A stretch of 39,224 nt of DNA, taken from the NCBI GenBank assembly GCA_947458835.1, contig CANHBC010000008.1, positions 1 through 39,224 of the forward strand, in the 5' to 3' direction. Positions 18,842 to 39,224 of this stretch are shown here, one piece after another. The stretch comes from Betaproteobacteria bacterium (lineage in GTDB: Bacteria; Pseudomonadota; Gammaproteobacteria; Burkholderiales; CAIKXV01). The notes under the pieces are model-generated. The model ran no database searches and was not told the DNA's origin. It was given only the letters and a program-made list of their open reading frames with translations. Made by a program: the position numbers and the translations under genes. How positions within the stretch are numbered: position 1 is the stretch's first letter; every line of letters starts with the position of its first letter.

Positions 18842-18918
18842 GCGCCCGTAGCTCAGCTGGATAGAGTACAGGCCTCCGAAGCCTGGGGTCGTGGGTTCGA
18901 ATCCCGCCGGGCGCGCCA
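18842..18918 (+). tRNA. tRNA-Arg (anticodon CCG)
   Basis: A 77-nt tRNA with encoded CCA. The acceptor stem GCGCCCG (18842-18848) pairs with CGGGCGC (18908-18914). The anticodon arm is CAGGC-CTCCGAA-GCCTG with CCG at 18876-18878, reading the CGG codon. The T-arm holds GGTTCGAATCCC-type sequence. It is a single gene with its own promoter, divergent from the CoA-transferase operon. Confidence 0.97.
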
Positions 18919-20933: not shown

Positions 20934-21329
20934 ATGACCCGACTCGCGGCAGGACTGAAGGGATCGCTGACCTGGGAAGTGACCGAGGATCTCTGCATGA
21001 AGCGCGGCGTGGTCCCGGTGTTCTCGACACCGTCGATGGTGCTGCTGGTCGAGCGGGCGGCGATCCACGCGATCGAGCCCTGCCTCTCGGCCGACCAGCG
21101 CACGCTGGGCACCTCGATCGAACTGCGCCACCTGGCACCGTCCTTCCCGGCCCAGCGCGTCCGGGCAGAGGTCGAACTGCTCGAGGTCGACCGGCGCCGC
21201 CTGTCGTTCCGGGTCGAGGTGTTCGACGAGGTCGAGAAGGTCGGCGAAGGCACGCACGAGCGCTTCATCGTGGACCCGGCGAAGTACGACGTCCGGGTCC
21301 GCGCGAAGCTGGATGCCCTGAAGCGGTGA
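20934..21329 (+). CDS. FlK-like hotdog thioesterase
   Basis: A 131-residue single hotdog-fold protein. VFSTPSMVLLVERAA (residues 29-43) and GTSIELRHLAPSFPAQ (59-74) match fluoroacetyl-CoA thioesterase-like proteins. Thr32, Glu40 and His66 have the same spacing (8 and 26) as the Thr42-Glu50-His76 triad that I recall for Streptomyces FlK. The family hydrolyses short or unusual acyl-CoAs; few members act on fluoroacetyl-CoA, so the substrate remains open. CAACGAGGAC precedes the ATG. It lies convergent to the enoyl-CoA hydratase gene, among CoA-using catabolic genes. Confidence 0.87.
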   Translation: MTRLAAGLKGSLTWEVTEDLCMKRGVVPVFSTPSMVLLVERAAIHAIEPCLSADQRTLGTSIELRHLAPSFPAQRVRAEVELLEVDRRRLSFRVEVFDEVEKVGEGTHERFIVDPAKYDVRVRAKLDALKR

Positions 21330-25180: not shown

Positions 25181-25196
25181 TAAACAATGCAGTTTA
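25181..25196. promoter_or_regulatory. Candidate operator TAAAC-N6-GTTTA
   Basis: TAAACAATGCAGTTTA is an AT-rich inverted repeat with 5-bp arms in the 56-nt gap between divergent hydrolase and Bug genes, in otherwise GC-rich DNA. It could serve a shared regulator or contain the -10 regions of both genes. Confidence 0.4.
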
Positions 25197-25219
25197 TCGA
25201 ATCACAAGGAAATCAGGAC

Positions 25220-26206
25220 ATGCGAAAGACCGATCCGTCCCGTAGCCCCGGCGCTGCCCTGCTGGTCGCCGTGCTGCCGGTACTGGTCGCGGCACCCGTG
25301 CAGGCGGCCGAGAGCTTTCCGTCGCGGCCGATCCGGATGATCGTGCCGTTCTCGGCCGGCGGCGCCTCGGACGGCCCCGCGCGCATCTACGCCGCCGAGA
25401 TGAACAAGCTTTCGGGACAGCAGATGCTGGTCGAGAACCGGCCCGGGGCCGGTTCGGTCCTCGGTGCCGAGATCGCGGCCAAGGCGACGCCGGACGGCTA
25501 CACGGTGTTCATGATCAGCAACACGCACTACGTGTCGGCGGCGATCCACCGGAAGCTGCCGTACGACGCGCTCACCGACTTCACTGCCATCACCGGGCTG
25601 ACCGCGGCACAGAACATCCTGGTGGTGCACCCATCGCTCGGCGTGAGGACGGTCAAGGAACTGATCGCGCTGGCGAAGAAGCGGCCCGGGGCGATCAACT
25701 GGGCCTCCTCCGGCAACGGCGGCACCCAGCACCTGACCGGCTCGCTGTTCGCGTCGATGGCCGGGATCGACATGGTGCACGTACCCTACCGCGGCAGCGG
25801 CCCGGCCACCGCCGACCTGCTCGCCGGTCAGGTCGCCGTCGGCTTCCCCGGCATCGCCGGCATGGTCGCCTTCGTGCAATCGGGCAAGCTGCGCGCGCTG
25901 GGCGTGTCGGCGAGCCGCCGCTCACCCCTGATGCCCGAGGTACCGACGATCGCCGAGGCCGGCGTGCCCGGTTTCGAGCTGGTGCCTTGGTTCGGCCTGT
26001 CCGGCCCGCGCGGCATGCCGGAACCGATCGTCACCACGCTGCATCGACTGAGCGTGAAGGCGATCGCCAACACCACGCCTGCCATGGCGCAGATCGGCCA
26101 GGAACCGTTCACCCATGCATCGCCTGCCGACTTCGCCGCCTTCCAGCAGAAGGAAGCGCCGAAGTGGGCCAAGCTCGCGCGGGCGAGCGGCGCGACGATC
26201 GACTGA
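25220..26206 (+). CDS. Tripartite tricarboxylate transporter substrate-binding protein (Bug receptor) 3
   Basis: A 328-residue periplasmic receptor. The signal peptide contains ALLVAVLPVLVAAPVQA followed by the mature start ESFPSRPIRMIVPFSAGG. Bug marks are VENRPGAGSVLGAEIAAKA, DGYTVFMISNTHYVSA, LPYDALTDFTAITG, HVPYRGSGPATADLLAG and AGVPGFELVPWFGLSGP. The start at 25220 has AAGGAAATCAGG upstream; an ATG at 25187 would place non-signal residues in front. It is divergent from the hydrolase-dioxygenase-Bug-hydratase group and convergent to Bug 4, with the large hairpin between. Confidence 0.95.
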   Translation: MRKTDPSRSPGAALLVAVLPVLVAAPVQAAESFPSRPIRMIVPFSAGGASDGPARIYAAEMNKLSGQQMLVENRPGAGSVLGAEIAAKATPDGYTVFMISNTHYVSAAIHRKLPYDALTDFTAITGLTAAQNILVVHPSLGVRTVKELIALAKKRPGAINWASSGNGGTQHLTGSLFASMAGIDMVHVPYRGSGPATADLLAGQVAVGFPGIAGMVAFVQSGKLRALGVSASRRSPLMPEVPTIAEAGVPGFELVPWFGLSGPRGMPEPIVTTLHRLSVKAIANTTPAMAQIGQEPFTHASPADFAAFQQKEAPKWAKLARASGATID

Positions 26207-26209
26207 AAA

Positions 26210-26341
26210 AAGCTGGACAAACTGGGGACCAAGCTGGGGGTCAGGTCTTGCCTTTTGCCTCGTGAGGCAAAAGGCAAGACCTGACCCCCAGTTTTGCTGC
26301 TCCTCCGCTTGACCCCCAGTTTCTCCTCAGTTTCCCAGTTT
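26210..26341. repeat. Inward-pointing array of degenerate AAACTGGGG units
   Basis: The whole gap between two convergent Bug genes is built from one repeated word. On the left, reading rightward, are AAGCTGGAC (26210), AAACTGGGG (26219) and AAGCTGGGGGTC (26231). On the right, reading leftward, are the complements of CCCAGTTT (26334), CCTCAGTTT (26325), GACCCCCAGTTT (26311) and GACCCCCAGTTTT (26283). The innermost copy on each side forms the base of the large hairpin. The rightmost copy touches the stop codon of Bug 4. The organisation resembles REP/BIME-type repeats, but no RAYT transposase gene is in the window. Confidence 0.7.
26234..26291. repeat. 58-nt near-perfect hairpin (28-bp arms)
   Basis: The left arm at 26234-26261 and the right arm at 26264-26291 are exact reverse complements of 28 nt, separated only by GT. 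The stem begins CTGGGGGTCAGGTCTTGCC and continues through TTTTGCCTC. Such a length without mismatch is far beyond chance and beyond a normal terminator. It may end both convergent transcripts, but the perfect arms point to a mobile REP-like unit or recent inverted duplication. It would extrude as a cruciform or fold in single-stranded DNA. Confidence 0.9.
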
Positions 26342-27309
26342 CAGTTCGGCTGCATGCGCAGTTCGCGGGCGATCTTCGACCACTTGGCGAGGTCGCTGGC
26401 AAGCAGTGCGCGGAAGGCTTCGGGCGGGCCGGCGGCCGGCTCGCCGCCATCGAAGGTGATGCGCTCGCGCACGTCGGGCAGCGACATCATCTTCACCAGT
26501 TCCGCGTTGAGTCGCGACACCAGCGGCGCGGGCAGGCCCGCCGGCCCGAGTACGCCGAACCAGTTGTTGAACTCGAATCCGGGCAGGCCCGATTCAGCCA
26601 TCGTCGGCACCTCGGGCAGGGTCGATGCGCGCCGGGCGCTGGTGACCGCGACCATGCGCAGGCGGCCGGCCTTCACCAGCCCCTGTGTCGTGAGCTGCGC
26701 CCCGAACTGGAACTCGATCTGCCCGGCCGCGACGTCCGCCGATGCCGGCCCCGCGCCCTTGTATGGGATATGCACCGTACGGATGCCGGCCATCACGTTC
26801 AGCAGTTCCCCGCACACATGGCCCCCGCTGCCGATGCCTGCGCTGCCGTAGGACAGCGGCTTCGATTTCGCGAGCTGCACGAGGTCCTTCACCGTACGCA
26901 CCTGCGAGTTCGCGCCCACGACCAGCACCAGCGGCGAGGTGCTGATCAGCGAGATGGGCGTGAAGTCGCGCAGGGTGTCGTACGGCACCTTCTGCAGCAC
27001 GGCATTCACGGTCAGGGCGGTGTAGGCCACGCCGAGCGTGTAGCCGTCCGGCGCAGCACGCATCAGCGTCTCCGCCGCCACCGTCCCGCCAGCCCCCGAC
27101 CGGTTGTCGACCACGAAGGTCTGGCCGAGCGCATCGCCAAGCTTCTGTCCGGCGATGCGCGCGAGTGTGTCCGTACTGCCGCCCGGCTGCGCCGGGACCA
27201 GCAGGCGCACCGGCCGCGCCGGCCAGCCGGCCTGAGCCGCCGAAATCGAGGGCAGCGCCGCCGCCGCCGCGACCGCGGCCAGCGCGAGCATGGGTAACTG
27301 CCGCGCCAT
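26341..27309 (-). CDS. Tripartite tricarboxylate transporter substrate-binding protein (Bug receptor) 4
   Basis: A 322-residue periplasmic receptor. An Ala-rich signal (MLALAAVAAAAALPSISAAQ) precedes GWPARPVRLLVPAQPGGSTD. Bug marks are VDNRSGAGGTVAAETLM, GYTLGVAYTALTVNAV, VPYDTLRDFTPISLI, HIPYKGAGPASADVAAG and ESGLPGFEFNNWFGVLGP. The ATG at 27309 with GGAGG upstream is preferred to a GTG one codon earlier. It starts 11 nt after the stop of Bug 5, so the two receptors are co-transcribed. Convergent with Bug 3 across the hairpin array. Confidence 0.95.
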   Translation of the reverse strand: MARQLPMLALAAVAAAAALPSISAAQAGWPARPVRLLVPAQPGGSTDTLARIAGQKLGDALGQTFVVDNRSGAGGTVAAETLMRAAPDGYTLGVAYTALTVNAVLQKVPYDTLRDFTPISLISTSPLVLVVGANSQVRTVKDLVQLAKSKPLSYGSAGIGSGGHVCGELLNVMAGIRTVHIPYKGAGPASADVAAGQIEFQFGAQLTTQGLVKAGRLRMVAVTSARRASTLPEVPTMAESGLPGFEFNNWFGVLGPAGLPAPLVSRLNAELVKMMSLPDVRERITFDGGEPAAGPPEAFRALLASDLAKWSKIARELRMQPN

Positions 27310-27320
27310 CACAGCCTCCG

Positions 27321-39148: not shown

Positions 39149-39224
<76 letters not shown>

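Follow-up and report, generated by a model that had tools for sequence, protein, structure and literature searches.

A hairpin between two convergent Bug genes is probably a non-autonomous TIR dimer of a TIRYT-type transposase, bordered by duplicated host/element junctions

Introduction

In a betaproteobacterial genome two convergent TctC/Bug genes are separated, from stop codon to stop codon, by a long hairpin, around which short words resembling AAACTGGGG are arranged. What kind of element is this hairpin, which enzyme could have moved it, and how did the words beside it arise? The window, i.e. the whole stretch of DNA that was analysed (39,224 nucleotides), is contig C8 of a draft genome of 3.76 Mb in 257 contigs (G000; the genomes compared are drafts too, and other genomes and contigs are likewise denoted by G and C numbers). 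An earlier note on this DNA had found the hairpin too long for a terminator and likened it to REP/BIME elements, with insertion or growth suggested up to the edge of a gene.

The hairpin and the words around it

An inverted-pair scan of the window (seed 12, arms of at least 16 nt, spacing of at most 200 nt) returned four pairs, the hairpin being the only one with non-overlapping arms. Its arms (26231-26261 and 26264-26294) are 31 nt each, 97% complementary and separated by a 2-nt spacer, with exact pairing over the inner 28 nt (26234-26261 and 26264-26291). Folded as single-stranded DNA it reaches -36.7 kcal/mol (z -11.4), which was equalled by none of 200 shuffles. The hairpin matches no described RNA family; Rfam families in the window are limited to two tRNA genes, at 18842-18915 and 39149-39221 (RF00005). 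The features are listed in Table 1.

Table 1 Features of the hairpin, its neighbours and the related transposase gene
Feature	Position	Strand	Remark
TctC/Bug solute-binding protein gene	25187..26206	+	TGA stop adjoins the element
Degraded left junction copies, AAGCTGG and AAACTGGGG	26210..26227	+	host word plus start of foot
Hairpin of two inverted TIR/REP-like units (REPIN-like dimer)	26231..26294	.	64 nt, near-perfect
Left TIR unit, 23-mer starting GGGGTCAGGTCTTG	26237..26259	+	first 22 nt recur on either side of the C20 transposase gene
Foot GGGGTCA of left unit	26237..26243	+	predicted cut on the opposite strand, C|T at the 26243/26244 step
Right TIR unit, identical 23-mer	26266..26288	-	same sequence as the left unit
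Foot GGGGTCA of right unit	26282..26288	-	predicted cut at the 26282/26281 step
Right junction copy, AAACTG+GGGGTCA	26310..26322	-	no continuation beyond the foot
Two shorter junction copies (AAACTGGG, AAACTG)	26328..26341	-	reach the stop codon of the right gene
Convergent TctC/Bug gene	26341..27312	-	TGA stop codon 26341-26343
C20 transposase gene P0001 (contig C20)	21174-22064		copies of the repeat at 20952, 20991 (+) and 22068 (-)

Seven AA(A/G)CTG words, all pointing inward as the earlier note had described, start at 26210, 26219 and 26231 on the plus strand and at 26294, 26322, 26333 and 26341 on the minus strand. The longer form AARCTGGG occurs five times in the 39-kb window, in each case within 26219-26341 and inward, against an expectation of 1.01; none of 100 shuffles reached five.

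A dispersed repeat family

A 17-mer arm word had 77 matches in G000 with at most 2 mismatches, while the reversed control had none. The exact 15-mer GGGGTCAGGTCTTGC was counted 73 times in G000 and was present in 21 of 100 related genomes. The search for further copies that had been proposed was thus answered positively, and the alternative outcome, a single copy that would leave only a local terminator, did not hold. The 39 clusters inspected include 28 with units in both orientations, 20 of them simple plus-minus pairs; in most clusters the arm is a constant 23-mer and the centre is variable. Among the loci examined, 38 clusters hold one to five units each, as singles, dimers and groups. A C164 match with 2 mismatches, in which a single arm stands in an unlike context, was dropped from the 38 clusters and the counts made on them, from the looser junction count and from the comparison with distant GGGG words; its locus was included in the strict junction test and the unit-length analysis described below. 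The 38 clusters lie between convergent genes (19), tandem genes (8) or divergent genes (2), apparently inside an open frame (5) or in a setting left unresolved (4), as called crudely by codon GC bias; some of the five in-frame cases are surely false calls.

Y1 transposases bordered by the same repeat

The Pfam family Y1_Tnp was found in two genes of G000, P0001 (296 aa, contig C20) and P0002 (contig C140). The statement in the earlier note that no RAYT is present is therefore correct for the window and incorrect for the genome. The C20 gene is preceded by three arm words (two full, one with 2 mismatches) and followed by one, and its TGA stop codon lies inside the downstream copy (GACC-TGA-CCCC). 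In the C20 TIRs as well as in the window hairpin, GGGGTCAG satisfies the motif GGGGWSAS. The C140 gene is bordered by another word, GGGTCAGACACGG. Together with the 77 copies, the C20 gene supports the earlier proposal of a non-autonomous, REP-like and probably mobile unit carrying GGGGTCAG and tied to a Y1 tyrosine transposase.

The residues H60, H62, Y119, N123 and P124 are invariant across 19 aligned sequences (HUH motif, Y---NP). The C-terminus of P0001 shows an HTH-like stretch by eye in the alignment, and besides Y1_Tnp no Pfam match was obtained. Against the NCBIfam model REP_Tyr_transpos (NF047646) P0001 scored 73.6 bits and P0002 71.3 bits, below the cut-off of 80 bits. A sequence search of the PDB with P0001 gave no match. 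A peculiarity was seen in P0002 (locus L034, C140 2003-2785 and downstream): its own TIR word seems to run in frame through the C-terminus (KPVSDPG), followed by a GPGPGP run, and repeat growth may lengthen this protein. The end of a transposase on G003:C106 (L111) resembles it.

With P0001 as query (E 0.001), matches, including P0002-like genes, were obtained in 51 of 100 related genomes. A scan of the collection with the 19 aligned relatives was reduced to the best 80 named loci, titled Beta-, Gamma-, Alpha- and Deltaproteobacteria, Nitrospira and others; 70 of these have full flanks. Of these 70 genes, 52 have an inward GGGG[TA][CG]A word upstream, 35 downstream and 34 on both sides (8, 6 and 0, respectively, for the opposite orientation), leaving 36 without the two-sided arrangement. 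An inverted repeat of at least 12 nt flanks 44 of the 70 genes, 38 of them with GGG, and is missing in 26; direct repeats, taken as the control, numbered 2. The stop codon is TGA followed by CC in 19 of the 70.

Beside some transposase genes the duplicated units are longer (L118, L126 and L120, in the context of G003:C282, G025:C8 and G007:C86), and they take in the 3' end (G003, G007) or the 5' end (G025) of the gene plus the TIR, as if the junction process had acted on the gene. Two loci titled Rhodospirillales and Kiloniellaceae (L179, L196) carry the 25-mer GGGGTCAGGTCTTGCCTTTTGCCTC as TIR; their transposases are 54% and 47% identical to P0001, yet congeners at 66-67% have a different inner arm.

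Filled and empty sites

For seven further sites of G000 the syntenic places in congeners were examined and scored where a contig spans them. Site C104b is filled in G000, G005 and G009 and empty in G002 and G010; the clean pair G005/G010 shows no visible target duplication. Site C45a is filled in G000, G003 and G005 and empty in G002, G009 and G010, of which G010 keeps a lone TGACCCC. These two are the cleanest cases; gaps in which a neighbour gene is missing are not strict empty and filled states of one address. This applies to C45b (filled in G000, G005 and G007; absent in G001, G002, G008, G009 and G010; neighbour gene missing in G001 and G007), to C20a (filled in G000, G005 and G007, degenerate in G010, empty in G003 and G009; neighbour gene missing in G005 and G007) and to C104a (one unit in G000 and none in G002-G008 and G010; in six of these eight genomes the neighbour gene is missing). 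At C20b G000 has a single unit and G009 is empty. Site C17 is filled in G000, G005 and G009, holds a single unit in G006 and lacks the element in G001, G004, G008 and G010, the last having by eye an ordinary terminator-like hairpin instead. Judged from these alignments, the pattern resembles insertion and fits movement of the units as a pair.

At the Bug address itself, the comparison with relatives suggested in the earlier note yielded no empty site. The Bug pair is syntenic in G003, G005, G006, G007 and G010, rearranged in G009 and G002, and not on one contig in G001, G004 and G008. None of the six genomes with the intact gene pair, G000 included, has an empty Bug address; in this it stands alone among the eight sites. 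The gap contains GGGGTCAGGTCTTG in G000, GGGGTCAGACCCC in G005, a short GGGGTCAGATTC remnant in G007, CCGGGTCAGAGACGATTTTCC in G006, CCGGGTCAGATCTGACCCGG plus CGTCTCTGACCCGG (a rearranged form of the G006 word) in G010 and CCCGGGTCAGACACGGTTTTCC in G003, i.e. hairpins or remnants of at least four families in six genomes. In G003, G005, G006 and G010 the gap word (at least 12 nt) is the word of the local P0002-type transposase. G000, with the P0001 family, is the exception, and no enzyme was found for the gap word of G007. The counts of GGGTCAGASACGRTTT (45 in G006, 49 in G009, 48 in G010, 24 in G003, 18 in G000, 5 in G002, 2 in G005 and 0 in G001, G004, G007 and G008) agree with the match between gap words and P0002-type transposases. 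The Bug address may be a favoured target, may hold a hairpin kept by selection or may be rewritten in place. As a separate observation, a second TIR family is present in G006, G009 and G010; the GGGTCAGASACGRTTT matches in G006 and G009 are nearly all GGGTCAGAGACGATTT.

Arm variants and the resident enzyme

Within GGGGTCAGGTCTTGNNTTTTGC, the dinucleotide NN that follows GGGGTCAGGTCTTG and precedes TTTTGC varies between genomes. It is CC in 63 of 68 copies in G000 and in 9 of 11 in G009, and AG in 41 of 60 in G005, 20 of 28 in G007 and 17 of 24 in G003; the counts for G003, G005, G007 and G009 were made by hand, and the comparison as a whole includes the TIRs of the genes themselves and sees only variants standing before TTTTGC. 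The downstream TIR of the P0001-type gene carries CC in G000 and AG in G003, G005 and G007, and its upstream TIR carries CC and CG in G000 and AT in G003, G005 and G007. The G009 gene has an upstream TIR only, with CC. By these counts the commonest arm variant is that of one TIR copy of the resident transposase in all five congeneric genomes, a match that concerns the downstream TIR only in G003, G005 and G007 and comes from five related genomes, which are not independent events. Both arms often change together and single hairpins stay near-perfect; some pairs combine different variants, such as AA and AG in G005.

Duplicated junctions at the ends of the element

The words around the hairpin had been taken for copies of a repeat unit. 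Each is instead a locus-specific host word X, here the 6-mer AAACTG or AAGCTG, followed by the hairpin foot GGGG(TCA). The AAACTGGGG words are tandem duplications of the locus's own host/element junction and not copies of a mobile unit; at other loci different host words precede the same foot. Across the duplications the host word is mostly 5-12 nt, followed by GGGGTCA, in tandem outside the hairpin. In the window the copy at 26322-26310 on the minus strand follows this general pattern in stopping after the foot, the remaining copies being shorter. The stop codon context of the right gene, AACTGA, is present in six of six congeneric genomes having the gene pair, and the AACTG word is therefore probably the host's. 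The earlier note saw insertion or growth that had reached the gene edge here; the conserved context suggests instead that a host word was probably the seed of the copies.

Of 81 ends in G000, 38 are accompanied within 80 nt by another GGGGTCA-like word, the X of which agrees with the end's own X in at least 4 of 6 positions; with X swapped between ends the mean was 6.9 and the maximum 13 (200 runs). A stricter test, applied to G000, to the best 80 named loci and to 20 stretches from related genomes, asked for an exact outer copy of X5+GGGG within 60 nt. Such a copy is present at 70 of 221 distinct ends, against a mean of 0.2 and a maximum of 1 of 225 with swapped X. The 70 outer copies continue into the element for 4 nt (5 copies), 6 nt (3), 7 nt (32), 8 nt (6), 9-10 nt (0) or 11-30 nt (24). 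The commonest stop, in 32 of 70, is thus exactly after GGGGTCA, which in the window is likewise the foot of both units. This 7-nt stop is a peak and not a rule: 24 of the 70 run for at least 11 nt and 8 fall short of 7. GGGG words more than 200 nt away gave a 7-nt match in 1 of 319. Of the 77 outer words beside the transposase genes of the best 80 loci, 42 agree over exactly 7 nt, one over 9 nt and none over 10 nt. The unit length of 54 adjacent GGGGTCA pairs is 12-17 nt in 42 and 12-19 nt in 50; these pairs require GGGGTCA in the outer copy by construction, unlike the strict X5+GGGG test.

The stop GGGGTCA|GG corresponds to a C|T step on the other strand. A second consensus cut was looked for at the outer breakpoint and was not found. 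Nor was there microhomology with the TCA that ends the foot: the outermost X is preceded by A in 8 of 42 cases and by CA in 2 of 42. On C45 of G000 (L035:2050-2440) a TIR hairpin is accompanied by an array of several TGACCCCATCCGAC units, which looks like a secondary tandem expansion of a junction copy.

Proposed mechanism and alternative explanations

Taken together, the hairpin is very probably a non-autonomous dimer of the TIRs of the TIRYT-type (RAYT-like) Y1/HUH transposase encoded on C20, and the words beside it may be junction scars made by this enzyme; the assignment is drawn from comparison of sequences. At replication forks the enzyme would recognise the TIR pair where it folds in single-stranded DNA and would cut at C|TGACCCC (complement GGGGTCA|GG), and the ends would be joined elsewhere without target duplication. 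A released TGACCCC+X end may sometimes be rejoined to a free 3' end some 12-19 nt further, on the sister strand, which would give a tandem junction. The AAACTGGGG words of the window would be such scars, partly decayed. As a side effect the hairpin may terminate transcription between the convergent genes. A more general proposal is put forward tentatively: that TIRYT enzymes leave a readable scar, since any of their actions at a resident TIR hairpin can duplicate the junction by cutting at C|TGACCCC and rejoining a fairly constant distance away, and that hairpins at a fixed address are rewritten in the course of time to match the enzyme then resident.

Palindromes provoke slippage, and it is quite possible, though less likely than not, that the element is mobile while the junction copies arose by replication slippage at the base of the hairpin, with no role for a transposase. 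The copies of at least 11 nt, some reaching 30, would suit such an origin, as would the (TGACCCCATCCGAC)n arrays on C45. It does not readily account for the GGGGTCA stop, which recurs across taxa though the hairpin begins at the first G or earlier, nor for the other breakpoint, where microhomology is lacking.

That the hairpin is a bidirectional intrinsic terminator of the convergent genes, the other copies being unrelated terminators, is improbable. Its strong fold and convergent position would suit this function, some hairpin or remnant is kept in all six genomes with the gene pair as if it were useful, the terminator-like hairpin of G010 stands at C17 in place of the element, and half of the clusters (19 of 38, with crude gene calls) lie between convergent genes. 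However, no T-run follows the stem and no terminator-like site was found in 26100-26450, identical 14-22-mers occur at dozens of places with a reversed control of 0, clusters also lie in tandem and divergent gaps, and the repeat stands at a transposase gene. A lone terminator was rejected on the missing T-run and the dozens of identical copies.

The earlier note had pointed to REP/BIME elements. Their classical form, with a GTAG tag and mobilised by a RAYT of group 2 or 3, agrees with the inverted pairs, the largely extragenic location and the Y1 transposases in the genome, and is nevertheless very improbable. GTAG or GTGG is absent from the hairpin foot, which is GGGGTCAG or a near variant among the copies listed, and the constant end is likewise GGGGTCAG. 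Furthermore, the bordering transposase has the same GGGG TIR, as described for TIRYTs (Di Nocera et al. 2013, PMC3733652), and the TIR class of these enzymes fits instead; the absent tag contradicts the GTAG class. A MITE of a DDE transposase, suggested by the inverted, non-coding and dispersed nature of the repeats, can hardly be credited, as no target duplication is visible at C104b in G005/G010 and the repeat borders a Y1 gene.

Comparison with known systems

TIRYT genes encode a Y1 transposase and are flanked by inverted repeats, many with GGGGWSAS and some overlapping the gene end; TIR copies occur elsewhere as singles, dimers and groups, in moderately abundant families (Di Nocera et al. 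2013, PMC3733652). The repeat described here agrees with these TIRtrons in all three respects, the flanked Y1 gene, the GGGGWSAS TIR and the dispersed singles, dimers and groups. It differs from what is given in the available part of that paper in the junction duplications with their GGGGTCA break and in the match between the hairpin at an address and the enzyme. The TnpAREP subclass 2.1 has the Y---NP signature, an HTH-like C-terminus and GGGG[AT][CG]A[CG] repeats, and probably equals TIRYT, which was left to be confirmed (Quentin et al. 2018, PMC6006769). That study found no REP-like sequences near subclass 2.1 genes and left open whether these enzymes handle the repeats beside their genes. 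Here dispersed TIR dimers were found; P0001 was assigned to this subclass by its features and not by the classifier of Quentin et al.

In REPINs the inverted two-unit form is common, and ordered clusters take in flanking sequence (Bertels and Rainey 2011, PMC3116915). The inverted pair as usual unit is shared (28 of 39 clusters here have both orientations), whereas tag and enzyme subclass are different and the repeated flank consists of a few host nucleotides plus a mostly 7-nt foot rather than a whole REPIN with its flanks. The TnpAREP enzymes studied, of E. coli and related systems, cleave single-stranded DNA at C|T beside a hairpin, one of them also at CA (PMC8266576). Such C|T cleavage would fit the break seen here; the GTAG guide, characteristic of the REPs listed by Nunvar et al. 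(PMC2817692), is absent.

The element class, a TIR of TIRYT, is thus already known. Among the titles and opening lines of abstracts listed from the openly licensed literature, no report of the junction duplications was found. The present analysis joins a dispersed repeat family to its enzyme and adds sites found filled or empty, arm variants matched to the enzyme and a candidate position of the cut; from the junction scars the cleavage position can be predicted by computation in many genomes. If the general proposal of a readable scar is true, genomes record where and how TIRYT enzymes cut, and the presence of different hairpin families at one address in sister species would be explained.
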